Shown piece by piece: positions 8,043 to 18,750 of a stretch of 47,905 bases of DNA. The stretch comes from Hydrogenophaga sp. GTDB lineage: Bacteria > Pseudomonadota > Gammaproteobacteria > Burkholderiales > Burkholderiaceae_C. How positions within the stretch are numbered: the first letter of the stretch is position 1; every line of letters begins with the position of its first letter. The stretch spans positions 1 through 47,905 of the forward strand of contig JAGKSX010000057.1 in the NCBI GenBank assembly GCA_018993155.1. The letters are read 5' to 3'. The translations under genes were made by a program, and so were the position numbers. The notes beneath the pieces are model-generated. The model had not been told where the DNA came from. It worked only from the letters and a program-made list of their open reading frames with translations, and made no database searches.

Positions 8043-8969
8043 ATGGACTCCAACGCGCTTGTGCTCTTCGTGGGCATCGTCGAGGCCGGCAACCTCAGCC
8101 TGGCCGCCCGCCAGCTGAAGATGAGCCGGGCCAACATCAGCTACCACCTGGCCCAGCTGGAGAAGTCGCTGGGCCAGCAGCTCATGCGGCGGACCAGCCG
8201 GCGTGTGGAGCTGACGGAGGTCGGTGAGCGGCTGTACCGGCACGGCAAGGTGGTGCGCGACGAATTGATGGCGGCGCGCGAGTCGGTGACAACCTTCGGG
8301 CGCTCGCTGCACGGCTCGGTGCGCCTGAGCGTGCCCACCGGCTTCGGGCACCTGGTGATGTCGGGCTGGCTGATCGAGTTCAAGCGCCGGTACCCCGACA
8401 TCGCGCTGGAGCTGCTGTTCGACAACCGCGTCGACGACCTGCTGCACGAGGAGGTGGACGTGGCGGTGCGGGTGATGTCCGAGCCGCCGCAGCAGCTGGT
8501 GGCGACGGAACTGGCGGCGGTGCGCTACGCCGTCTGCGCCTCGGTCGAGCATGCGCGCTTGCATGCCATGCCCAGCACGCTGGAAGAGCTGGAGCGCGTG
8601 CCCTTGATCACCTCCGCCGTCTCCGGCCGCGAGCTGCGGATCTCGGCCTACCGCGACGGCGAACGGCGCGAGCTGAGCCAGCGCCCGACCCTCGCCTCGG
8701 AGAATTTCCAGTTCCTGCGCGAAGCCATCCTGGCCGGCCTGGGCGTGGGGCTGGTGCCCGACTACGTCATCGACCAGGATGTCGCCGAGGGCCGCGTGGT
8801 CACGGCCCTTCACGACTGGCGGCTGAGCGTGTTCGGCACGCGCATGTTCCTGCTGCGCATGCCGAACCGCTTCCAGACCCTGGCCACACGGACCCTGATC
8901 GACTTCATCGTCGACCAGGTCCGCGCCTGGCAGGCGGGGATGCGCGTCGGGCCTGAGCGGCGCGCCTAA
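8043..8969 (+). CDS. LysR-family transcriptional regulator
   Basis: 308 residues from ATG 8043; an in-frame TTG at 8028 is an alternative but lies only a few bases from the AAGGA at 8020-8024. The helix-turn-helix (AGNLSLAARQLKMSRANISYH) and the following wing (TSRRVELTEVG) are standard for the CrgA/DmlR-like group that controls metabolic genes. The effector domain includes the usual VDVAVRV segment and a late AGLGVGLVPDYV segment. It is divergent from the acyl-CoA dehydrogenase, the most likely target. Its stop codon overlaps that of the convergent nitronate monooxygenase gene by 4 bases. Confidence 0.9.
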   Translation: MDSNALVLFVGIVEAGNLSLAARQLKMSRANISYHLAQLEKSLGQQLMRRTSRRVELTEVGERLYRHGKVVRDELMAARESVTTFGRSLHGSVRLSVPTGFGHLVMSGWLIEFKRRYPDIALELLFDNRVDDLLHEEVDVAVRVMSEPPQQLVATELAAVRYAVCASVEHARLHAMPSTLEELERVPLITSAVSGRELRISAYRDGERRELSQRPTLASENFQFLREAILAGLGVGLVPDYVIDQDVAEGRVVTALHDWRLSVFGTRMFLLRMPNRFQTLATRTLIDFIVDQVRAWQAGMRVGPERRA

Positions 8970-9979
8970 GCCGACACCTGCAGGCGCTGGAATCGGCCGC
9001 AGGCCTGCACGCACTCCCGTTGCAGCCGCTGCACGATGCTGGCCACCGGCTCGATCGCGCGCGCAAAACCCACGGCGGGCCCCATGGAGAGCATGCCTTC
9101 CTCGTGCTGGCCGGCCTGGTAGGCCAGGGTCTGCGTGCGCTCGCCGCTGATCAGCTCACCGAACGCCGCGTAGCTGTTCGCGCCCGTCTGCTCCAGCGCA
9201 GCCACCTTGCGCGCGTTGTCGTTGTCGATGATGCGCCAGGTGTCGCCCAGGCTGCCGAGCACGGCGCGGGTGCCATGTTCGTCGGTATTCACCACGCGCT
9301 GCTTGTAGGCCTCGTGCGCGGGCGTCTCCACCGCCGCGGTGAAGACGCTGCCCATCACCACCGCATCCGCCCCCAGGGCCAGCGCGGCGGCGATCTGCCG
9401 GCCGTGGCCAATGCCACCACCCAGCGCCAGCGGCACCTGCAGTCGCTCCAGCGCATACGCGCCATTCAGGAAGGTCGGCAGCTGGTTGTTGCCCGGGTGG
9501 CCGCCCTCTTCCATGCCCACCAGCGTGACCGCGTCCACACCCATGTTCTGTGCGGCCACCGCGTGGCGCACGTGCGCACACTTGTGGACCACGACCGCGC
9601 CGGCTTCCTTGATCGCGGGCAACAGCGGCGTGGGCGGCAGCCCCGCCGTCTCGAAGATCCGCACGCCCTCTTCGAGCGCGATGCGCAGGCGCGTGAGCAT
9701 CACATCGTTCTGTGCCACGCGGCGCGAGAGCGTGAGGTTCACACCGAAGGGCTGGCCCTGGGTCCATTCCCGGCAGTCGCGCAGCGCCTGGCGGAACGCC
9801 TCGTCGGAGCGCGAACTGCGCGCGGTGATGAAGCCCATGCCGCCAGCGCGCACCATGGCGGCGACCAGGCGCGCGTCCGACAGCCACATCATGCCGCCCA
9901 GCAGCAAGGGCCAGCGGATGCCCAGCAGCTCGGTGATGCGCGTGGGAAGACGGTCCGGAATCGTGACGCCCGCGCTCAT
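8966..9979 (-). CDS. Nitronate monooxygenase / 2-nitropropane dioxygenase family flavoprotein
   Basis: 337 residues with a TIM-barrel NMO fold. IRWPLLLGGMMWLSD near the N-terminus, PFGVNLTLS, the EEGGHPGNNQLPT loop carrying the conserved His, and the phosphate-binding stretch GGGIGHGRQIAAALALGADAVVMGS all belong to this FMN family. Members oxidise alkyl nitronates such as propionate 3-nitronate, but many are enoyl-reductase-like or uncharacterised. Its start overlaps the IclR stop by 4 bases (ATGA), so regulator and enzyme are co-expressed. It may have a role in the pathway controlled by that IclR protein rather than in nitronate detoxification. Confidence 0.85.
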   Translation of the reverse strand: MSAGVTIPDRLPTRITELLGIRWPLLLGGMMWLSDARLVAAMVRAGGMGFITARSSRSDEAFRQALRDCREWTQGQPFGVNLTLSRRVAQNDVMLTRLRIALEEGVRIFETAGLPPTPLLPAIKEAGAVVVHKCAHVRHAVAAQNMGVDAVTLVGMEEGGHPGNNQLPTFLNGAYALERLQVPLALGGGIGHGRQIAAALALGADAVVMGSVFTAAVETPAHEAYKQRVVNTDEHGTRAVLGSLGDTWRIIDNDNARKVAALEQTGANSYAAFGELISGERTQTLAYQAGQHEEGMLSMGPAVGFARAIEPVASIVQRLQRECVQACGRFQRLQVSA

Positions 9980-10791
9980 ACGTGCCGCCCCATCAGCAGG
10001 ATCGGATGGAGCTCCAGCGCCAGCTGGCGCAACAGCGGCCCCACCTCGCTGAGCATCAGCGGCTGCGGCAGCAGCGTCGCCGGGCCGCCGCAGCTGATCA
10101 CATAGCGTTCACCGGCCGGCAGTTCGATGGCCGATGCGACGGTGTTGATCTGGTGCCGAGGGCGCTCGTGGTACGTGAAGCCGCGCTCCGGGTACCGCGC
10201 GATGGCCTGTGCCAGTGCCTGCTGCTCCGCCGGATCGGCGGCCGCGTCGCCGGCCTCGGCCAGCAGACGCGCGCGCTCGTCGGGCGTGCACGAGGCCAGG
10301 TAGGCCCAGCCGATCGCGCTGTGGAACAGCGGAATGCGCGAGCCCACGCGCAGGTTCATCAGCAGCGGTGAATTGCCCTGGCAGCGCAGCAGGTAGACGA
10401 TGCTGTCGCCGTCCCGGCGCCCCAGGGCCACGGCCACCTGGTAGCGGTCGGCCAATGCCTGCAGCCGTGGGCGAATCACTTCCAGCGCCTCCTGCCCGGC
10501 GAGCGCGGCCGCGCCCAGCGCAATCACCGCCGCGCCCAGCTGCAGCTTGTCCTTGCCCGGCACCGGGCTCAGGAAGCCGGTCTTCTGCAAGGTGTGGCAC
10601 AGCCGCCAGACCGTGGGCTGCGCGAGCCCTGTCAGGTGGGCGATTTCCGTGGTGCCCAGCATGCGCCGCTCGGCGTCGAAACAACGCAGCACCTCCAGCC
10701 CGCGCGCGAGCGCCGTGACGAACTGGCGGTCGGGTTCGGCCGCCTCCGGGGGTTCGCCCACAGGACTTGTGGACGTGTCGGTGCTTGACAT
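9976..10791 (-). CDS. IclR-family transcriptional regulator
   Basis: 271 residues. The N-terminal winged helix begins near residue 25 (LARGLEVLRCFD, then MLGTTEIAHLTGLAQPTVWRLCHTLQ), the standard IclR DNA-binding pattern. The C-terminal GAF-like effector domain follows (RLQALADRYQVAVALGRRDGDSIVYL and a later HQINTVASAIE). The promoter of the divergent seven-gene operon begins inside its start codon (TTGACA at 10785-10790), so regulator and operon share one control region. Most likely it represses or activates the 10.9-18.7 kb catabolic operon in response to a pathway acid. Confidence 0.93.
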   Translation of the reverse strand: MSSTDTSTSPVGEPPEAAEPDRQFVTALARGLEVLRCFDAERRMLGTTEIAHLTGLAQPTVWRLCHTLQKTGFLSPVPGKDKLQLGAAVIALGAAALAGQEALEVIRPRLQALADRYQVAVALGRRDGDSIVYLLRCQGNSPLLMNLRVGSRIPLFHSAIGWAYLASCTPDERARLLAEAGDAAADPAEQQALAQAIARYPERGFTYHERPRHQINTVASAIELPAGERYVISCGGPATLLPQPLMLSEVGPLLRQLALELHPILLMGRHV

Positions 10792-10814
10792 GGGGATGCC
10801 ACCTTTCGTATGAT
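10785..10814 (+). promoter_or_regulatory. Strong sigma70-like promoter of the seven-gene CoA pathway operon
   Basis: TTGACA (10785-10790, six of six) and TATGAT (10809-10814, five of six) are 18 bp apart. Transcription would begin near 10821, about 40 bases before the first gene. It is the best-looking promoter in the window. The -35 overlaps the IclR start codon on the other strand. Confidence 0.6.
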
Positions 10815-10840
10815 CAATTCACTTAGCGAGTTATCAATTC
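10813..10840. promoter_or_regulatory. ATCAATTC direct repeat, probable IclR operator
   Basis: ATCAATTC occurs at 10813-10820 and 10833-10840, exactly 20 bp (two helical turns) apart. The first copy overlaps the -10 element and the second lies just past the expected transcription start, so bound protein would block the operon promoter. The regulator is most likely the adjacent IclR protein. Confidence 0.5.
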
Positions 10841-10861
10841 GCCATGCAAATTATAAAGAGA

Positions 10862-12088
10862 ATGACAGACAAAATCAACCCCCTGCCTCAGCCCGTGGCC
10901 ACCCTGGCCACCGGCGGCGGCATTTCCTGGCCCGGCGACAGCCACTGGGGCCCCGATGCGCTGGAGCGCGCCGTGCAGGTGGCCGGCGCGCGCCTGCGCC
11001 AGCCCCTGGTCATCACCGACCCGGTGGTGTGGCGCGCCGTCGGCCCCGCCGTGCAGGCCGCGCTCGCCACCGTGCCCGGGCTGTCCTGGCAGGTGTACGA
11101 CGGCGTGGTGCCCAACCCCACGCTGACCCAGGTGCGCGAGGCGCTGCAGACGGCGCGGCGCCTGGGCTGCGGCAGCCTCATCGCCGTGGGCGGCGGCAGC
11201 GCGATCGACGTGGCCAAGGTGGTCCTGGCCGGCCTGGCCGGCGGCCTGGACGTGGAGGAACTGCAGGCGCCGCGCGGCCGGGCCTGGCTCGACGCCCCCG
11301 CCACGCCCGAGGACGCCCTGCTGCTGGCGGTGCCCACCACCTCGGGCACCGGCAGCGAAAGCAGCTCGGCTGCGCTGATCCAGGGCGACGACGGCCGCAA
11401 GCACCTGTACCGCTCGCTGCGCCCCCGCCCCGCCATCGTGGCACTGCAACCTTCGCTGACGCTGGGCCTGCCGCCCCGCCCCACCGCGCACGGCGGCTTC
11501 GACGCGGTGCTGCACGCGCTGGGCACCTGGGTCAACACCGACCCGTCCCCGGTCGGCAAGGCCCTGGCCTTGCACGCGCTGCGCATCTGCCTGCCAGCCC
11601 TGCCCGCCGTGCTGCGGGAACCGGACAGCCTGCAGGCCCGCGCCGACATGCAGATGGGCGCCTACCTCGCGGGCGTGGCCATCGGCCTGAACAAGGTGGA
11701 CGCGGTGCACGGCATGTGCACGCCGCTCGAAGCGCGCGTGCACCTCACGCACGCGGAAGTGCTGGCCCCGGTGTTCAGCGTGGTGGCGCGCCACACGGTA
11801 CAGACCCACGCCCGCCCTTACGCGGAGGCGGCACGCGCGCTGGACATCGCGAGCACCGGCAACGAGCAGCACGACGCGCTGGCACTGATCGAAGCAGTGG
11901 AAGGCCTGGCCCGGCTCGGCGGCATCGCCACGCGCTTCACGGATCTGCGCCTGTCGGCGCAGGACGCCGACGAACTTGCGACCCGGGCGCTGCGCAGCGC
12001 CTCCACCCCGCTGAACCCGCGCCCGCTGGCGCACCCAGACATCCGGTCGCTGTACCTGCAGATGGCCCACCCAGGAGTTTCCCCATGA
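10862..12088 (+). CDS. Iron-containing alcohol dehydrogenase (group III; maleylacetate-reductase/butanol-dehydrogenase type)
   Basis: 408 residues from ATG 10862; an ATG at 10844 is possible but has no ribosome-binding site and touches the operator. Nucleotide-binding VGGGSAID and the PTTSGTGSE motif are clear. Spacing from FucO suggests the metal ligands Asp214, His218, His283 and His297. The further His that FucO-type enzymes carry four residues after the third ligand is a Thr here (VHGMCTPLE). The enzyme should interconvert an alcohol and an aldehyde, or reduce an enol acid, with NAD(P)(H). It overlaps the next gene by 4 bases (ATGA), coupling it to an aldehyde dehydrogenase, which suggests alcohol oxidation. 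Confidence 0.88.
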   Translation: MTDKINPLPQPVATLATGGGISWPGDSHWGPDALERAVQVAGARLRQPLVITDPVVWRAVGPAVQAALATVPGLSWQVYDGVVPNPTLTQVREALQTARRLGCGSLIAVGGGSAIDVAKVVLAGLAGGLDVEELQAPRGRAWLDAPATPEDALLLAVPTTSGTGSESSSAALIQGDDGRKHLYRSLRPRPAIVALQPSLTLGLPPRPTAHGGFDAVLHALGTWVNTDPSPVGKALALHALRICLPALPAVLREPDSLQARADMQMGAYLAGVAIGLNKVDAVHGMCTPLEARVHLTHAEVLAPVFSVVARHTVQTHARPYAEAARALDIASTGNEQHDALALIEAVEGLARLGGIATRFTDLRLSAQDADELATRALRSASTPLNPRPLAHPDIRSLYLQMAHPGVSP

Positions 12089-13548
12089 ACGTTGTCGACA
12101 CCCGGCCCTATGAACTGCTCATCGGCGAGCGCTGGACCGCAGGCGCACAAGGCCGCACCTTCGACACCCTGAACCCCGCCACCGGCCAGGTGCTGGCCCA
12201 GGTGCACGAGGCCACCGAGGCCGACGTGGATGCGGCCGTGATGGCCGCGCACGAGGCGCACCAAAAACACTGGCGCAAGACCACCCCAGCCGAGCGCGGC
12301 CGGCTGCTGCGGCGCCTGGCCGAGCTGTTCGAGCGCGACCGCGAAAAGATCGCCTGGCTCGAAACCTTGAACGTGGGCAAGCCCATCACGCATTCGCTGG
12401 AATCGCTCAAGGCCATGCCCGCGTCGCTGGCGTACTTCGCCGGCATCATCCCCGCCGTGCGCGGCGAGACCATCCCGGTGGGGCAGCCGGACGTGCTGAA
12501 CTTCACCCTGCGCGAACCGCTGGGCGTGTGCGCCCTGGTCATGCCGTGGAACTACCCGATGACGCTCACCGTCAACAAGCTCGGGCCGGCCCTGGCCGCG
12601 GGCAACACGGTGATCCTCAAGCCCTCGGAGGTGACGCCGCTGTCCACCATGGCGCTGGCGCGCTTGTTCGAGGAGGCCGGTTTCCCCGCGGGTGTGGTGA
12701 ACGTGGTCAACGGCCCGGGCGCCACCGTGGGCCAGCGGCTGGTGACGCACCCGCTGGTCTCGCGCGTGTCGTTCACCGGCGGCACCGTGACCGGCGCGCG
12801 CATCCTGGCCGCCACCGCCAGCGACGTCAAACGCGTGACCCTGGAGCTGGGCGGCAAATCGCCCCTCATCGTGTTCGACGACGCGCCGCTGGAGAAGGCC
12901 GTGGCCGTGGCCGCGGGCGACCTCATCAAGAACTCGGGCCAGGTGTGCATCTCCTGCACCCGCCTGCTGGTGCAGGACGGCATCCGCGACGAATTCATTC
13001 AACGCCTGCAGCAGCGGCTCGCGACCGTGCGCGTGGGCTCGCCCACCGACCCGGCCACCGAGATGGGGCCGCTGGTCAGCGCGGCGCAGAAGCAGCGCGT
13101 CGAGCAGTACATCGAAATCGCCGGCCGCGAAGGTGCCTTGCCCGCCGCGTCCGGGCAGATGGCGCTGGACGCCACGACGGCTGCCGGCTTTTTCGTGCGG
13201 CCCACCCTGCTGCTGAACTCGCACAACCGCATGCAGTCCGCGCAGGACGAGATCTTCGGCCCGGTGCAATCGGTCATCGGCTTTCGCGACGAGGCCCAGG
13301 CGCTGGACCTCGCCAACGACTCGCGCTACGGCCTGGCCGCCGTGCTGTTCACGCGCGATGGCGGCCGCGCCCTGCGCATGGCGCACGGCCTGCAGAGCGG
13401 CAGCGTGGCGATCAACACCGGCGTGCGCACCTCCTTCGACGCGCCCTTCGGCGGCTACAAGCAGTCCGGCATCGGCAAGGAGCGCGGGCTCGAAGCGATC
13501 TACGAAAACACCCAGCTCAAGAACGTCAAGTACGACATGAGCGTGTAA
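12085..13548 (+). CDS. Aldehyde dehydrogenase (betaine-aldehyde/phenylacetaldehyde dehydrogenase type)
   Basis: 487 residues, full length for the family. MPWNYPM, the SFTGGTVTG cofactor loop, LELGGKSP with general-base Glu254, and SGQVCISCTR with nucleophile Cys288 are all present, as is the C-terminal PFGGYKQSGIGKE. It oxidises an aldehyde to its acid with NAD(P)+ in the cytoplasm. AGGAG lies just before the ATG, and the start overlaps the alcohol dehydrogenase stop by 4 bases. With the first gene it forms an alcohol-to-acid pair feeding the acyl-CoA synthetase further down the operon. The substrate is unknown. Confidence 0.95.
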   Translation: MNVVDTRPYELLIGERWTAGAQGRTFDTLNPATGQVLAQVHEATEADVDAAVMAAHEAHQKHWRKTTPAERGRLLRRLAELFERDREKIAWLETLNVGKPITHSLESLKAMPASLAYFAGIIPAVRGETIPVGQPDVLNFTLREPLGVCALVMPWNYPMTLTVNKLGPALAAGNTVILKPSEVTPLSTMALARLFEEAGFPAGVVNVVNGPGATVGQRLVTHPLVSRVSFTGGTVTGARILAATASDVKRVTLELGGKSPLIVFDDAPLEKAVAVAAGDLIKNSGQVCISCTRLLVQDGIRDEFIQRLQQRLATVRVGSPTDPATEMGPLVSAAQKQRVEQYIEIAGREGALPAASGQMALDATTAAGFFVRPTLLLNSHNRMQSAQDEIFGPVQSVIGFRDEAQALDLANDSRYGLAAVLFTRDGGRALRMAHGLQSGSVAINTGVRTSFDAPFGGYKQSGIGKERGLEAIYENTQLKNVKYDMSV

Positions 13549-13573
13549 ACCCTTTCAACCCAGGAGACCACCA

Positions 13574-14539
13574 ATGAAACTCAGCAAAAAAATCGTTTTC
13601 GGCCTCGCGGCGTGCACGCTCGCGGGCAGCGCCCTGGCCGAATGGCCCGACAAGCCCATCCGCATGGTGATCGGTTTCGCCCCCGGCGGTGCGTCCGACA
13701 TCGCCTTCAAGATGGTGCAGGAAGAACTCGCGCGCCGGCTGGGCCAGCCCGTGGTGCCGGACTACAAGCCCGGCGCGAACGGCAACATCGCCAACCAGGC
13801 CGTGGCCACCGCCGCGCCCGACGGCTACACCGCGCTGTGGGCCAACGTGGGCCCGCTGGCGGTCAACACCTACCTCTACAAGGGCGTGAAGATCGATCCG
13901 GGCAAGGCCTTCGTGCCCGTGACCCAGCTCACCGACTCGCCCCTGGTGGTGGTGGTGCCCAAGTCCTCGCCCTACCGCACCATGCAGGAGCTGCTGCAAG
14001 GCATCAGGCAAACCGGTGCCACGATGTCCTACGGCTCGGCTGGCCACGGCAGCTCCATGCACATCGCCGGCGCTTCGCTGGCCCTGGCCCTGAACGCACC
14101 CATGACCCACGTGCCCTACAAGGGCAGCGCGCCGGCCATTCAGGACTTGCTGGCCGGGCGCCTGACCTTCATGGTGGACAGCCGCTCCACCACCGCCCCG
14201 TTCATCCAGGACGGCTCGCTGCGCGCCCTGGCCGTCAGCGGTGGCAAGCGCGCCGCCGACATGCCCGAGATTCCCACCGTGGAAGAGGCCGGCGTCCCCG
14301 GCTTCAAGGTCACCACCTGGCAGGCCGTCGTCATGCCGGCGGGCACGCCCAAACCCATCGTCGACAAGTTCTCCAAGGCGCTGCGCGAGACGCTGGAAAC
14401 GCCCGAGGTGCGCGAGCGCTTCGCCCGCATCTACACGCCGCTGGTGGGCAGCACGCCCGAGGTCTTCGCGAAGTTCTGGGAAAAGGAACGCGCCGAGGCC
14501 AAGACCCTGGTGGAAACCGCCAAGCTGCAGATCGACTGA
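13574..14539 (+). CDS. Bug-family (TctC) tripartite tricarboxylate transporter substrate-binding protein
   Basis: 321 residues. A signal peptide is visible (MKLSKKIVFGLAACTLAGSALA), then the Bug opening WPDKPIRMVIGFAPGGASD. The two lobes carry the standard signatures GANGNIANQAVATAAPDGYT and THVPYKGSAPAIQDLLAGR. Bug proteins bind carboxylates or aromatic acids in the periplasm and usually pass them to TctAB, but no membrane subunits are encoded nearby, which is common in Burkholderiales. It begins 25 bases after the aldehyde dehydrogenase with AGGAG upstream. It may capture the operon's substrate or report its presence. Confidence 0.95.
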   Translation: MKLSKKIVFGLAACTLAGSALAEWPDKPIRMVIGFAPGGASDIAFKMVQEELARRLGQPVVPDYKPGANGNIANQAVATAAPDGYTALWANVGPLAVNTYLYKGVKIDPGKAFVPVTQLTDSPLVVVVPKSSPYRTMQELLQGIRQTGATMSYGSAGHGSSMHIAGASLALALNAPMTHVPYKGSAPAIQDLLAGRLTFMVDSRSTTAPFIQDGSLRALAVSGGKRAADMPEIPTVEEAGVPGFKVTTWQAVVMPAGTPKPIVDKFSKALRETLETPEVRERFARIYTPLVGSTPEVFAKFWEKERAEAKTLVETAKLQID

Positions 14540-14565
14540 CCTTGCCTTGAATGGATTGACCGATC

Positions 14566-15315
14566 ATGGATCTCGGACTGAAAGAAAGCACCGCCTTCAT
14601 CACGGGCGGAGCGGGCACGCTGGGCCTGGCCATGGCCCGGCGCTTCGTGCAGGAAGGCTGCAACGTCGTCGTGTGCGACACCAACCAGGACGCGATCGAC
14701 GCTGCCTGCGAAGAACTGACCGCCCTGGGCGGCCAGGCGCTGGGCGTGCGGGCCGACGTGACCAGCAAGGACGAGGTGGCCCAGGCCGTGCAGAAGGCCA
14801 CCGACCGCTGGCAGAAGGTGGACGTGCTGGTCAACAACGCGGGCTTCGCGCGCGACAGCTACCTCACCCGCATGCGCGAAGAAGACTGGCACGCGGTGCT
14901 CGACGTGACCCTGCTGGGCGCCTTCCATTGCTCGCGCGCCGTGCTGCCGCTGATGATGGCGCAGCGCTACGGCCGCATCGTCAACATCGCCTCGCGTGCC
15001 CACCTGGGCAACCCGGGGCAGACCAACTACTCGGCGGCCAAGGCCGGCCTGATCGGCTTCACGCGCTCGCTCGCACTGGAGTCGGGCAAGTTTGGCATCA
15101 CCGCCAACGCGGTCGCGCCCGGCGTGATCTCCACGCCGCGCATGCAGCAGCGGCCCGACTACGCCGAGCTCACCGAACGCGCCAAGTCCAACACGCCCGT
15201 GGCGCGCCTGGGCGACCCGGCCGACGTGGCCGCCACCGTGGCCTTCCTGGCCTCGCGGCTGGCCGGCTTCACCACCGGCGAGACCGTGCACGTCACCGGA
15301 GGGCGCTACGCATGA
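14566..15315 (+). CDS. SDR-family oxidoreductase (FabG-like)
   Basis: 249 residues. The cofactor loop TGGAGTLG near residues 14-21, NNAG, and the catalytic set Ser143, Tyr155 and Lys159 (YSAAK) mark an intact classical SDR. The ending GETVHVTGGRYA is FabG-like. The likely reaction is oxidation or reduction at a hydroxyl or keto group of a CoA-linked or free intermediate. It overlaps the MaoC-type hydratase gene by 4 bases (ATGA), and hydratase plus SDR is a normal beta-oxidation pairing: enoyl-CoA to hydroxyacyl-CoA to ketoacyl-CoA. Confidence 0.93.
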   Translation: MDLGLKESTAFITGGAGTLGLAMARRFVQEGCNVVVCDTNQDAIDAACEELTALGGQALGVRADVTSKDEVAQAVQKATDRWQKVDVLVNNAGFARDSYLTRMREEDWHAVLDVTLLGAFHCSRAVLPLMMAQRYGRIVNIASRAHLGNPGQTNYSAAKAGLIGFTRSLALESGKFGITANAVAPGVISTPRMQQRPDYAELTERAKSNTPVARLGDPADVAATVAFLASRLAGFTTGETVHVTGGRYA

Positions 15316-15809
15316 GCACCCCCTTCGACCTGGACGAACACCTGGGCCGGCGCCTGTACTTCGACGACCTGCAGACCGGCCAGACCTGGGAAAGCCCGCG
15401 CCGCACCGTGACCGAGGCCGACGTGGTGCAGTTCGCGGGCCTCTCGGGCGACTACAACGCGCTGCACACCGACGCGGTGTTCGCCGCCGAGCACCCCTTC
15501 GGCCAGCGCGCCGCGCACGGCCTGCTGACCCTGGCTATCGCATCCGGCCTGACCACCCGCATGCCGGTGTACCGGCTGATGGACGGCGCCCGCCTGGCGC
15601 TGACCGAACTGCGCTGCCAGTGGCGTGCGCCCGTCTTCATGGGCGACACCCTGCATGTGGAGCTGCGCATCGGTGAGAAAACGCTGTCGCAGAAACGCCC
15701 CGGCACCGGCCGCGTGGCGATGCACCGCACGGTGAAGAACCAGCGCGGCGAGGTGGTGGTGGAGAGCGAATGGACCACGCTGATGAAATGCAGAACGGAG
15801 GCCGCATGA
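15312..15809 (+). CDS. MaoC-like (R)-specific enoyl-CoA hydratase/dehydratase
   Basis: 165 residues of single hotdog domain. The hydratase-2 catalytic stretch is FAGLSGDYNALHTD, in which the Asp-x-Asn-x-x-His of (R)-specific hydratases is kept, although the usual Pro is Ala. The second motif FGQRAAHGLLTL precedes the long helix. It should add water to an enoyl-CoA or remove it from a hydroxyacyl-CoA. The gene overlaps both neighbours by 4 bases, so SDR, hydratase and acyl-CoA synthetase form one translationally coupled block. Itaconyl- or mesaconyl-CoA-type hydratases belong to the same family and are possible alternatives. Confidence 0.92.
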   Translation: MSTPFDLDEHLGRRLYFDDLQTGQTWESPRRTVTEADVVQFAGLSGDYNALHTDAVFAAEHPFGQRAAHGLLTLAIASGLTTRMPVYRLMDGARLALTELRCQWRAPVFMGDTLHVELRIGEKTLSQKRPGTGRVAMHRTVKNQRGEVVVESEWTTLMKCRTEAA

Positions 15810-17917
15810 ACAGCGCCGTCCGTTTCGACGACCTCGCGGGGCTGACGCAGCCGCGCTCGGTGATGGTCGTGGGTGCCTCCACCAGCCCCGGCACGCTGGG
15901 GCACACCACCGTGCTCAACCTGCTGGAGCACTCGGATTTCAGCGGTGAGGTCCACCTCGTCAACCCCAAGGGCGGCGAGCTGATGGGCAAGCCGCTGCAC
16001 CGCAGCGTCGACGAGGTGCCGGCCCAGGGCATCGACGTGGCCCTGCTGCTGGTGCCCGCCGAATCGGCCATCGCCACGCTGAGCGCCTGCGCCGCCCGGG
16101 GCGTGCGCTACGCCATCGTGTTCACCGGTGGTTTTGCCGAACTGGGCGAGGCGGGCCGCTCGGTCGAGGCCGAGATGCGGGCTCTGGCCGAGCGCACCGG
16201 CATGCGCATCTACGGCCCCAACTGCGCGGGCATGACCCTGCTGGCGCCCCGCCTGGGTTTGACCTTCTCGACCGAATTCCGCAACGACGGCCGCAGCGGC
16301 GCGCTCTCGCGCATCGGCCTGGTGACGCAGGGCGGCGGCCTGGGCCGCTCGCTGATGCAGGGCGACGAGCGCGGCGTGCGCTTCTCGCGCTGGTTCTCCA
16401 CCGGCAACGAGGTCGATCTGGACAGCGCCGACTTCATCCACTGGCTGGCGAACGACCCCGGCACCGACCTGATCTGCACCGTGATGGAAGGCATCAAGGA
16501 CGGCACGCGCTTCGTGGCCGCGGCCCAGGCCGCGCGCCGCGCCGGCAAGCCGCTGATCGCCCTGAAGATCGGCCGCTCGGACTTCGGCAAGAAAGCCGCC
16601 CAATCGCACACCGCCTCGCTGGCCGGTGAAGACGTGGTCAACGACGCGGTGTTCTCGCAGCACGGCGTGATCCGCGTCGAGGACCTGGACGAGCTGCTCG
16701 ACGTGGCCAGCCTGATCTCGCGCGTGGGCGTGCGCAACCTGCAGCGGGTCTGCGTGTACTCGTCGTCGGGCGGTGCCGGCGTGCTGTCGGCCGACAAGGT
16801 GGGCGAAGCGGGCCTGGCCATGGCCACGCTGGGCGAGGCCACCGTGGCCGAGATGGCGAAGCACGCGCCCTCCTACGCCGCGCTGACCAACCCGGTGGAC
16901 CTGACCACCAAGGCCCTGGTCGACCCCGAACTGGCGCGGCGCTGCCTCACGCCCTTGTTCGCCGACCCCGGCGTGGACGTGGTGCTGTACCCCATCACCT
17001 CCAACTACGCGGCCAGCACCGAAGGCCTGGTGCGCAACATGCTGGAAGTGGCCCGCACCGGCAGCAAGGCCTTCGTGCCGGTCTGGATGAGCAGCCGGCG
17101 CGGCCCGGCGCACGAGCTGCTGGTGAGAGAAGGTTTCGCGCCGATCTACAGCCTGCGCAACGCCACGCTGGCCCTGCAGCGCTGCAGCGGGTACGCGCAG
17201 CAGCTCGGCACCGCCAACGAACCCGAGGCCGCGGTGGTCGGCGGGCCCTCCTCGACCGTGGCGCTGCCCTGCAGCGAGACCCAGGCCAAGGCCCTGCTCG
17301 CGCAACACGGCGTGCGCTCGCCTCAGGAGGCGCAGGCCACCACCGCCGATGAAGCCGCCGCGCAGGCGTGCCGCATCGGGTTTCCGGTGGCGCTCAAGCT
17401 GGTGGCCGACGGCGTGCTGCACAAGAGCGAGATCGGCGGCGTGGCCCTGCACCTGCGCGACGCAGAACAGGTGCGGGAGGCCTTCGATCGCATCCTCGCC
17501 AACGCACGCCGGCACCTGGTGCCGCCACAGGCCATCCGCGGCGTGCTGGTGTCGGAGATGGTGACGAACGGCGTGGAAATGCTGGTCGGCATCCACCGCG
17601 ATGCGGTCTTCGGCCCGGTGCTCAGCGTGGGCGCGGGCGGCGTGTGGGTGGAGGTCGAGGCCGATGTGGCGCGCTGCCACCTGCCTGCGGGCCGCGCCGT
17701 GCTCGAACGCGCGCTCGACAAGACGCGCATCGCCAAACGGCTCGCCAGCCACCGCGGCCTGCCCGCGCGCGACCGCGCCGCGCTGCTGGACGCCATGCAG
17801 CGCATGGCCGCGCTGTTCCTGGGCCTGGGCGAGCGTGTGCAATCCCTGGAAGTGAATCCGCTGGTCGTGCTCGACGACGGTCAGGGCGTGGTCGCCCTCG
17901 ATGCCGTGATCGAGTGA
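15806..17917 (+). CDS. ADP-forming acyl-CoA synthetase (acetate-CoA ligase family, fused alpha-beta)
   Basis: 703 residues; ATG 15806 overlaps the hydratase stop (ATGA), and an in-frame start at 15770 lies inside that gene. Domain order is CoA-binding Rossmann (about 1-130, VMVVGASTSPGTLG), succinyl-CoA-synthetase-like domains (about 150-450) and C-terminal ATP-grasp (about 489-700, ending EVNPLVV). The phosphohistidine is probably His268 in SHTASLAG, the site used for phosphoryl transfer from ATP. The enzyme makes a CoA thioester from a free acid with release of ADP and phosphate, reversibly. It probably activates the acid made by the upstream alcohol and aldehyde dehydrogenases. Related family members include protein acetyltransferases, but no GNAT domain is attached here. 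Confidence 0.92.
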   Translation: MNSAVRFDDLAGLTQPRSVMVVGASTSPGTLGHTTVLNLLEHSDFSGEVHLVNPKGGELMGKPLHRSVDEVPAQGIDVALLLVPAESAIATLSACAARGVRYAIVFTGGFAELGEAGRSVEAEMRALAERTGMRIYGPNCAGMTLLAPRLGLTFSTEFRNDGRSGALSRIGLVTQGGGLGRSLMQGDERGVRFSRWFSTGNEVDLDSADFIHWLANDPGTDLICTVMEGIKDGTRFVAAAQAARRAGKPLIALKIGRSDFGKKAAQSHTASLAGEDVVNDAVFSQHGVIRVEDLDELLDVASLISRVGVRNLQRVCVYSSSGGAGVLSADKVGEAGLAMATLGEATVAEMAKHAPSYAALTNPVDLTTKALVDPELARRCLTPLFADPGVDVVLYPITSNYAASTEGLVRNMLEVARTGSKAFVPVWMSSRRGPAHELLVREGFAPIYSLRNATLALQRCSGYAQQLGTANEPEAAVVGGPSSTVALPCSETQAKALLAQHGVRSPQEAQATTADEAAAQACRIGFPVALKLVADGVLHKSEIGGVALHLRDAEQVREAFDRILANARRHLVPPQAIRGVLVSEMVTNGVEMLVGIHRDAVFGPVLSVGAGGVWVEVEADVARCHLPAGRAVLERALDKTRIAKRLASHRGLPARDRAALLDAMQRMAALFLGLGERVQSLEVNPLVVLDDGQGVVALDAVIE

Positions 17918-17959
17918 CGCACCGGCCCACCTGATACCTCAAGCAAAGGAAACATCACC

Positions 17960-18715
17960 ATGTTCGACAGCCAGATCGGCGGGGGCGACGCCCATTCCAT
18001 CCTGGTGCGGGGCCATGACCTCGTCAACGACCTGTTCAACCGCGACTTCATCGACGTGCTGGCGCTGGAGCTGCTGGGCGAGTTCCCCAGCCCGCCGCTC
18101 AAGCGCATGCTCAACCTGTTCCTGGTCAGCGCCACCGACCACGGCCTCACGCCCAGCGCGCTGTCCTCGCGCCTCACGCTGCACGGCGCCCCCGAGGCCA
18201 TGCAGGGCGCGCTGGCCGCCGGCCTGCTCGGTGCCGGCAGCCGCTTCCTCGGCGTCATCGAGTACAGCGCGCGCTTCCTGCGCGACGCGCTGCCCCCGAA
18301 GGACAGCTACACCGACGAGGAACTGCGCGCGTGCGCCGAGGAATGCGTGCGGGCCAACAAAGCGGCCAAGCGCAAGATCCCGGGCGTGGGGCACCCCATC
18401 CATGTGGACGGCGACCCCCGCTGCGAGCGGATGTTCGAGATCGCCCGCGAGTGCGGCTACTACGGCGTGTACTCGCGCTTCGCGGTGGAACTCGCGGCGG
18501 CGGCGGCGCGCCAGTCCGGCCGCAAGATCCCGCTCAACGCCACTGGCGCCAAGGGCGCCATCGTGCTCGACATGGGCCTCACGCCCGAACTGGGCAAGGC
18601 GCTCACCATGATCGGGCGCACCGTCGGCCTGATGGCCCACATCATCGAAGAGCAGAAGAACCCCATCGCGCAAAAGGTGTGGGACATGGCCTCGGGCCAC
18701 GCCGCGCACGGATAG
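17960..18715 (+). CDS. Citryl-CoA-lyase-like protein (citrate synthase superfamily) with altered triad
   Basis: 251 residues, the size of a stand-alone citryl-CoA lyase and of the C-terminal module of ATP-citrate lyase. Recalled family motifs align well: SATDHG (His61) with the first catalytic His, GLLGAGSRFLG with the glycine-rich turn, GVGHPIH (His145) with GIGHRIK, and MIGRTVGLMAHIIEE at the C-terminus. However, the third catalytic residue, Asp in LNVDG of known lyases, is Thr195 here (LNATG). The expected reaction is retro-Claisen cleavage of a 3-hydroxyacyl-CoA to acetyl-CoA plus a keto compound, but the missing Asp makes the chemistry uncertain. It is the last gene of the operon, 42 bases after the synthetase and just before a strong hairpin. 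Confidence 0.8.
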   Translation: MFDSQIGGGDAHSILVRGHDLVNDLFNRDFIDVLALELLGEFPSPPLKRMLNLFLVSATDHGLTPSALSSRLTLHGAPEAMQGALAAGLLGAGSRFLGVIEYSARFLRDALPPKDSYTDEELRACAEECVRANKAAKRKIPGVGHPIHVDGDPRCERMFEIARECGYYGVYSRFAVELAAAAARQSGRKIPLNATGAKGAIVLDMGLTPELGKALTMIGRTVGLMAHIIEEQKNPIAQKVWDMASGHAAHG

Positions 18716-18726
18716 GGCGCAAAGAA

Positions 18727-18750
18727 GGCGGCCCGCCGTCGCGGGCCGCC
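18727..18750. terminator. Bidirectional intrinsic terminator between convergent genes
   Basis: GGCGGCCCGC (18727-18736) and GCGGGCCGCC (18741-18750) form a perfect 10-bp GC stem with a CGTC loop, 11 bases after the lyase-like gene. On the minus strand it is followed by TTCTTT, a usable U-tract for the convergent chemoreceptor gene. On the plus strand there is no T-run. Confidence 0.6.

Follow-up and report, generated by a model that had tools for sequence, protein, structure and literature searches.

What reaction does a protein named citryl-CoA lyase perform in an operon that otherwise reads as a route from an alcohol to a coenzyme A (CoA) thioester? The question is raised by a 47,905-nucleotide stretch of Hydrogenophaga sp. 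DNA (assembly GCA_018993155.1, contig JAGKSX010000057.1), referred to here as the window. Seven complete open reading frames (ORFs), all on the plus strand at positions 10,862–18,715, were ordered g1 to g7 by ORF reading and Pfam, for which the MaoC and synthetase proteins were entered with slightly different ends. They encode an iron-type alcohol dehydrogenase (Fe-ADH), an aldehyde dehydrogenase (ALDH), a Bug/TctC solute-binding protein, a short-chain dehydrogenase/reductase (SDR), a MaoC-type hydratase, an ADP-forming acyl-CoA synthetase and the citrate-synthase-fold protein g7, and are linked to a divergent IclR-family regulator. An earlier interpretation made from the DNA alone (the sequence-only reading) had named these families in this order, which was confirmed, and had proposed an alcohol-to-acetyl-CoA pathway. 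One co-regulated operon and the steps from alcohol to aldehyde, acid, CoA thioester and hydration stood as the families predict, with motifs present in ALDH, SDR and MaoC; the last step, as it was written, was not supported. The protein g7 is itself the more interesting object than the operon. We favor, with a probability a little below 0.4, an IclR-controlled catabolic operon in which g7 would be a retro-Claisen enzyme of citrate-synthase fold that cleaves 3-oxoacyl-CoA instead of a thiolase.

Active Site of g7

The g7 gene (positions 17,960–18,715, plus strand) encodes a member of the citrate-synthase C-terminal-like family of Pfam, with the C-terminal fold of citrate synthase, and is named citryl-CoA lyase by the NCBIfam model NF004868 (PRK06224.1-5; 315.1 bits, above the cut-off of 193). 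Its predicted activity is that of a 3-oxoacyl-CoA retro-Claisen hydrolase. The protein was compared with three references, namely the citryl-CoA lyase of Hydrogenobacter thermophilus (HtCCL, 6hxp), the citrate synthase of its own genome and CitA of B. subtilis, and with homologues from 71 loci drawn from the window, named genomes (four loci including the window), plasmids, and genomes of the window's own assembly, family, order and phylum. Removal of two identical proteins left 69 distinct sequences, which include three of 10 named orthologues; the other seven showed the same residues in a separate alignment.

The active-site set of citrate synthase is His274, His320 and Asp375 in pig numbering, as given in the available part of PMC8455617. 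In g7 the enolizing His (His274) is replaced by F96, and the position is non-His in 68 of the 69 homologues and His in all three references. The catalytic Asp (Asp375) is replaced by T195 and is likewise non-Asp in 68 of 69; this position is D in HtCCL and the own citrate synthase and E in B. subtilis CitA. The equivalent of His320 is present as H145 in g7 and in 66 of the 69 homologues. The 68 homologues lacking both His and Asp form one clade, in which Glu/Asp 79 (E79 in g7) and Gln 82 are fixed, which also carries His 148, and in which many polar and charged positions vary little or not at all. R154 and R220, which we take to be the carboxylate-binding arginines of citrate synthase, are retained in g7 together with H145. 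Because key active-site residues are gone, the reaction of g7 would differ from that of citryl-CoA lyase, and g7 probably performs another cutting reaction. The ending proposed by the sequence-only reading, cleavage of a hydrated CoA ester by a citryl-CoA-lyase-like enzyme, calls on a protein that lacks two catalytic residues, and the g7 active site lends no support to a retro-aldol ending of the citrate or itaconate type.

Gene Neighborhoods of g7 Relatives

Neighbors were counted over 68 homologues, with L089 (canonical His and Asp) excluded; some of the SDR, MaoC, acyl-CoA dehydrogenase and CoA-transferase seeds derive from loci of the set, and in these self-matching loci the genes carry the corresponding annotation in their records. 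The g7 protein belongs to a subclade of 13 members (SH-aLRT, Shimodaira–Hasegawa-like approximate likelihood ratio test, 92), whose same-strand neighbors within 5.2 kb included an SDR in 12, MaoC in 11, an ADP-forming synthetase in eight and an acyl-CoA dehydrogenase in six. An SDR lay near the g7 relative in five of 55 loci outside the subclade (Fisher p about 1e-8, uncorrected for relatedness). When the window and its three orthologues were counted once, SDR was found in 9/10, with MaoC in eight, the synthetase in five and acyl-CoA dehydrogenase in six. The scheme of the sequence-only reading gives no job to this SDR, and a 3-oxoacyl-CoA intermediate with an acid product suits the operon better.

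The modules with acyl-CoA dehydrogenase include a paralogue in the window's own genome (L009, contig C23, 8,166–14,602), which comprises SDR, acyl-CoA dehydrogenase, MaoC, synthetase, a g7-like gene and a CoA-transferase. In Diaphorobacter, genes for CoA-transferase, Fe-ADH, Bug and flavin reductase come after this same core, and a Rhodococcus plasmid has the row acyl-CoA dehydrogenase, MaoC, SDR and g7-like. Locus L052 combines SDR, MaoC, synthetase, g7-like, Bug, aldo/keto reductase, ALDH and flavin reductase, without an acyl-CoA dehydrogenase. By family content, the modules of the subclade read as a beta-oxidation set with g7 in the place of the thiolase. In L009, an upstream frame looked by eye like an HpcH/HpaI-type lyase; elsewhere on C23, about 20 kb away, PF00108 had a weak match of 64.3 bits.

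The megaplasmid of Cupriavidus metallidurans CH34 (L070) carries a g7 homologue of 62% identity with AMP-ligase, SDR and Bug genes upstream and no MaoC match in the locus; its Fe-ADH and ALDH, on the opposite strand, share only 28 and 39% identity with g1 and g2, respectively. According to the available part of the CH34 paper, this genome encodes no citryl-CoA synthetase/lyase route. Six loci (L077, L078, L081, L082, L085, and L086; five in genomes from a different class of the phylum, one in a genome of the same class) consist of a minimal divergent pair of a CoA-transferase (CaiB) and a g7-like gene, with an IclR match in four. These pairs are neutral for the proposed 3-oxoacyl-CoA cleavage and are not explained by it.

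Possible Sources of 3-Oxo Acids in Loci Without SDR

If g7 relatives cleave 3-oxoacyl-CoA, loci that lack an SDR need another source of a 3-oxo acid, a prediction set so as to be falsifiable. In eight loci (L063, L064, L066, L087, L110, L111, L113, and L114), both an intradiol dioxygenase gene and a CoA-transferase gene lie no more than 5.2 kb from the g7-like one. The dioxygenase of L066 was of the hydroxyquinol type (258.8 bits vs. 108.6 for the catechol type), and that of L063 scored 251.7 bits with PnpC and 240.4 with hydroxyquinol dioxygenase vs. 124.6 for the catechol type; five of the other six were 60–77% identical to the L063 enzyme, and that of L087 36%. The product of a hydroxyquinol-type dioxygenase, maleylacetate, is a 3-oxo acid and fits the expectation. 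An Fe-ADH of the maleylacetate reductase family was found in none of the eight, using a profile of five Fe-ADHs that recovers four control loci. The eight loci may represent an alternative lower hydroxyquinol pathway.

In two further loci, L068 (9,575–13,952) and L083 (5,584–10,690), an AMP-ligase, a g7-like protein, a protein of 319–336 aa for which Pfam gave no match, an alpha/beta hydrolase and an Fe-ADH form one cluster. The L068 Fe-ADH is maleylacetate-reductase-like (359.7 bits), so that its product would be 3-oxoadipate, again a 3-oxo acid. Relatives of g7 thus sit where, from the neighboring families, a 3-oxo acid or a 3-oxoacyl-CoA is expected.

Proposed Pathway

The families of g4, g5 and g6 are those of 3-hydroxyacyl-CoA dehydrogenase, hydration and CoA activation in beta-oxidation-type degradation of acids, and Pfam matched neither a thiolase nor an acyl-CoA dehydrogenase among the seven operon genes. 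The substrate of the operon may be an alpha,beta-unsaturated primary alcohol (allylic, e.g., cinnamyl-type), or its aldehyde or acid. A substrate with its double bond already in place would be in keeping with the lack of an acyl-CoA dehydrogenase; the sister modules with this enzyme would take saturated acids. Each reaction is predicted here from family membership, and the order of the steps, the substrate and the attacking group are likewise proposals, whereas the gene families, the conserved gene order, the residue changes and the neighborhoods in which no thiolase was detected are direct observations.

The Fe-ADH g1 (10,862–12,088, plus strand) would oxidize the allylic alcohol to an enal. 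One Asp and three His of g1 align, as judged by eye, with the metal ligands of lactaldehyde reductase, at positions that we assume for that enzyme. The betaine-aldehyde-dehydrogenase-like ALDH g2 (12,085–13,548, plus strand; Pfam 556.7 bits), which has ELGGKS and GQVC motifs and scored 509.8 bits with the BADH model, under its cut-off of 668.6, would convert the enal to a 2-enoic acid. The single-chain ADP-forming synthetase g6 (15,806–17,917, plus strand; CoA_binding_2, Succ_CoA_lig and ATP-grasp_5) would activate the acid to 2-enoyl-CoA; its nearest relatives in the PDB were 3-hydroxypropionate- and 4-hydroxybutyrate-CoA ligases. Water would then be added by the MaoC-type hydratase g5 (15,312–15,809, plus strand; GDYNALH motif), which has PaaZ and R-specific hydratases among its PDB matches, to give 3-hydroxyacyl-CoA. 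The FabG-like SDR g4 (14,566–15,315, plus strand; YSAAK motif) is a predicted 3-hydroxyacyl-CoA dehydrogenase that would form the 3-oxoacyl-CoA; its best PDB matches were the yeast (3R)-hydroxyacyl-CoA dehydrogenase 2et6 and BbsD (7pcs), after which came many FabG-type reductases. Finally, g7 would split the 3-oxoacyl-CoA in a retro-Claisen reaction, with attack by water and not by CoA, releasing acetyl-CoA together with a carboxylic acid that has two carbons fewer. The old fold could be reused in this way, as the gem-diol formed on hydration of a 3-oxo group is similar to the 3-hydroxy carbon of citryl-CoA. The remaining gene, g3 (13,574–14,539, plus strand; Pfam TctC 214.5 bits), encodes the Bug/TctC protein.

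Thiolases and Alternative Explanations

It is rather unlikely, in our view, that g7 cuts no carbon–carbon bond and acts on CoA esters as a thioesterase, isomerase or hydratase, or as a non-catalytic partner, while a thiolase encoded elsewhere does the cleaving. The loss of both catalytic residues would suit such a role, and the window's genome has at least 24 PF00108 matches (22 of the 24 listed exceed the family cut-off, some being short stretches in long frames), so that one of these thiolases could act in trans. A CitE-type lyase also lies beside the g7 relative in four loci (by Pfam for L054), and in L073, a member of the g7 subclade, an SCP-x-type thiolase-like gene ("lipid-transfer protein") is part of a divergent operon, at a distance of about 4.5 kb; the SCP-x seed matched L073, L057, and L059. 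A passive role accords poorly with the many nearly invariant polar and charged residues of the 68 homologues, with g7 being conserved more strongly than any other operon gene, and with the lack of a nearby thiolase match at most relatives, both by the seeds and among the matches listed in the Pfam scan. Thiolase seeds from the own genome matched none of the 68 loci within 7.5 kb, where nine of the 11 retrieve at least one other seed and two retrieve no other, and where 12 of the 71 loci are shorter than 15 kb. At 16 g7-like loci in 15 genomes, the matches listed, which are the stronger ones, included none to PF00108 over 10 kb or as far as the contig reached, several contigs ending within that distance; the nearest listed was about 12 kb away, in genome G176. 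None was among the matches listed on the window's contig, C124.

A different cleavage, in line with the sequence-only reading, would be a retro-aldol reaction: hydration of a branched enoyl-CoA by MaoC would give a tertiary 3-hydroxyacyl-CoA, which g7, with a relocated catalytic acid/base, would split to release acetyl-CoA plus either a ketone or a 2-oxo acid. We consider this unlikely. It is consistent with the citryl-CoA lyase fold, with the retained H145, R154, and R220, and with the frequency of MaoC in the subclade, and the Shy/Sal steroid pair offers a precedent of a repurposed fold with a hydratase in the available part of PMC12329534. However, it leaves the SDR jobless although the SDR tracks the g7 subclade, the His/Asp pair is gone in 68 of 69 homologues, and the two typed dioxygenases yield a 3-oxo acid, not a tertiary alcohol. 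A true citrate route with citryl-CoA synthetase and lyase, as the model name of g7 and the adjoining synthetase might suggest, is highly improbable: g7 lacks the catalytic Asp and His, and g6 is nearest to ligases of other hydroxy acids, as given above. The title of PDB entry 6znw, ATP-citrate lyase D541A with citryl-CoA, would also fit an Asp that is needed for turnover, if D541 is assumed to be the equivalent residue.

Besides the thiolase-like genes and the scope of the thiolase searches given above, several observations weigh against 3-oxoacyl-CoA cleavage by g7. R154 and R220 also suit lyases that release keto acids. H148 also occurs in L089, which retains the canonical His and Asp, and for this reason is by itself no mark of a new reaction; as L089 is the sole canonical-type row among the homologues, the active-site contrast rests on it and the three reference enzymes. 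In L054, L056, L057, and L059 the g7-like gene is accompanied by a CitE-type lyase, PrpD, CaiB and an acyl-CoA dehydrogenase, with no SDR match, which the proposal leaves unexplained; an enoyl-CoA hydratase match was seen in three of these four. Within the g7 subclade, L090 has no SDR match, and 10 of the 68 homologues have no CoA-activating neighbor. Pairs of an AMP-ligase and a g7-like gene also occur and are not explained. Typing covers two of the eight dioxygenases (L063 and L066) and, of the Fe-ADHs in L068 and L083, that of L068. No demonstrated activity of any member of the g7 clade was found in the literature searched.

Comparison with Known Pathways

The H. thermophilus citryl-CoA lyase and the lyase module of ATP-citrate lyase share the citrate-synthase-type fold with g7 but differ at F96 (for His), at T195 (for Asp) and in E79/Q82, fixed in the g7 clade, as well as in a context with SDR and MaoC. 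A plain citryl-CoA lyase or two-enzyme citrate route was rejected as a match on account of the missing His and Asp. In benzylsuccinate beta-oxidation (bbs), hydration and cleavage are carried out by a crotonase-type hydratase and a thiolase. The operon resembles it in the relation of g4 to BbsD (203.9 bits) and in the sequence of CoA activation, acyl-CoA dehydrogenation (here in sister modules only), hydration, SDR oxidation and cleavage, but has MaoC and g7 for hydration and cleavage. The canonical hydroxyquinol/3-oxoadipate pathway ends in a CoA-transferase and a thiolase; in contrast, the loci with a hydroxyquinol-type dioxygenase or a maleylacetate-reductase-like Fe-ADH near a g7 relative have a CoA-transferase or AMP-ligase with that relative and no thiolase seed match.

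Shy of the steroid Shy/Sal pair is reportedly MaoC-type. Sal, in the available part of PMC12329534, has a thiolase-related fold with other catalytic residues and, complexed with the hydratase, performs a retro-aldol C–C cleavage of a CoA ester, unlike g7 with its citrate-synthase fold and adjacent SDR. The itaconate-type route, as described in the available part of PMC12290011, shares with the operon a CoA ester, its hydration and a cleavage that releases acetyl-CoA, but Pfam matched neither a CoA-transferase nor a CitE-type citramalyl-CoA lyase among the seven genes. The resemblance to itaconate breakdown seen in the sequence-only reading proved weak, g5 scoring 57 bits with the itaconyl-CoA hydratase model (RipB/Ich) against a cut-off of 340, and this route was rejected on the family scores. 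Two further candidates were rejected on the available parts of their sources: VceA and VceB of Sphingobium SYK-6 are there a VAA-converting enzyme and a thioesterase, neither tied to citrate-synthase-type proteins, and the phenylpropanoid catabolism of PMC12642758 relies on a thiolase-family protein together with a hydratase/lyase. No described pathway with this gene set was found in the literature searched, as the sequence-only reading had supposed, although one Streptomyces paper there mentions citryl-CoA lyase and MaoC, each a single time; coverage lacks most subscription journals, and such absence is no proof of novelty.

Conservation and Origin

A scan of named genomes with g7 as query, which finds close relatives only, gave 10 orthologous loci, four in Achromobacter, four in Advenella and two in Pigmentiphaga. 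The nine-gene order of an NMO/FabK-like gene, the divergent IclR gene and g1–g7 was kept in all 10, which is more than chance; a lack of conservation, named with the sequence-only reading as grounds for its refutation, is thus not what was seen. Median identities ranged from 64% (Fe-ADH) to 91% (g7), g1 being the least conserved operon gene (48–72%) and g7 the most conserved (81–92%).

At E 1e-80, g7 was found in none of 35 other genomes of the window's genus; at E 1e-30, homologues occurred in 33 of 200 genomes of the family, its own included, the best foreign one at 46% identity. Because none of the congeneric genomes has g7 at the stricter of these thresholds, the operon was probably gained horizontally, most likely from an Alcaligenaceae-type source. 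The G+C content of the operon (70.3%) against its flanks (68.3 and 68.4%) is weak as a sign of transfer. Orthologues of the adjacent chemoreceptor, 81–91% identical, were found in three congeners (L132–L134), in stretches that hold no operon, only Bug (29–32%, two) and IclR (31%, one) matches; the LysR gene of the left flank was not found there, and L133 starts at the chemoreceptor.

Regulatory Region and Gene Junctions

The IclR-family regulator (9,976–10,791, minus strand; Pfam HTH_IclR and IclR_C) was present in all 10 loci, as was the adjoining gene for an NMO/FabK-like flavin mononucleotide (FMN) enzyme (8,966–9,979, minus strand), which matched Pfam NMO with 141.9 bits and the FabK model with 174.4 bits, far under its cut-off of 453. 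Of four ATGA overlaps reported earlier, three lie inside the operon (12,085, 15,312, and 15,806), and the fourth (9,976) joins IclR to the NMO/FabK-like gene, outside g1–g7. The strong promoter claimed is good by consensus: a sigma-70-type site, TTGACA-18-TATGAT (10,785–10,814, plus strand), matches 11 of 12 positions, and three promoter-like sites were found vs. 0.2 in shuffles. The intergenic alignment of 11 loci was cut at TTGAC, so that this motif, present in the window and the 10 orthologous loci, anchored it; TATGAT occurs in nine of the 11 and is missing from both Pigmentiphaga loci. Downstream, an element of three related half-sites, GCGAGTTA-nn-AATTCGC-nnn-GCAAATTA (10,826–10,853, no strand assigned), is the probable IclR operator, and AATTCGC and GCAAATTA are invariant in all 11. 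Between the operon and the convergent chemoreceptor gene lies a G+C hairpin with a 10-pair stem (18,727–18,750, no strand assigned). The terminal hairpin of the sequence-only reading therefore exists, but the T-rich tail belongs to the minus strand, facing the chemoreceptor gene, and terminator-like sites (three vs. 4.1 in shuffles) are no commoner than chance.

Significance for the Family

A wider form of the proposal, which we hold a shade more tentatively than that for the operon, is that the "citryl-CoA lyases" of many Proteobacteria and some Actinobacteria may be a separate family whose site was rebuilt for 3-oxoacyl-CoA cleavage, serving as a thiolase alternative in modular operons whose substrates are unsaturated alcohols and acids, hydroxyquinol, or 3-oxoadipate, with the operon of the window as one complete pathway from an alcohol to an acid and acetyl-CoA. 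If this is true, the family annotated as citryl-CoA lyase would be misnamed, and reconstructions that treat it as a citrate-cleaving enzyme of the reverse tricarboxylic acid cycle would be wrong. There would be a further enzymatic route for cutting 3-oxoacyl-CoA, by way of a rebuilt citrate synthase site, and the substrates of orphan IclR/Bug operons would become more predictable, a 3-oxo acid being the thing to seek.

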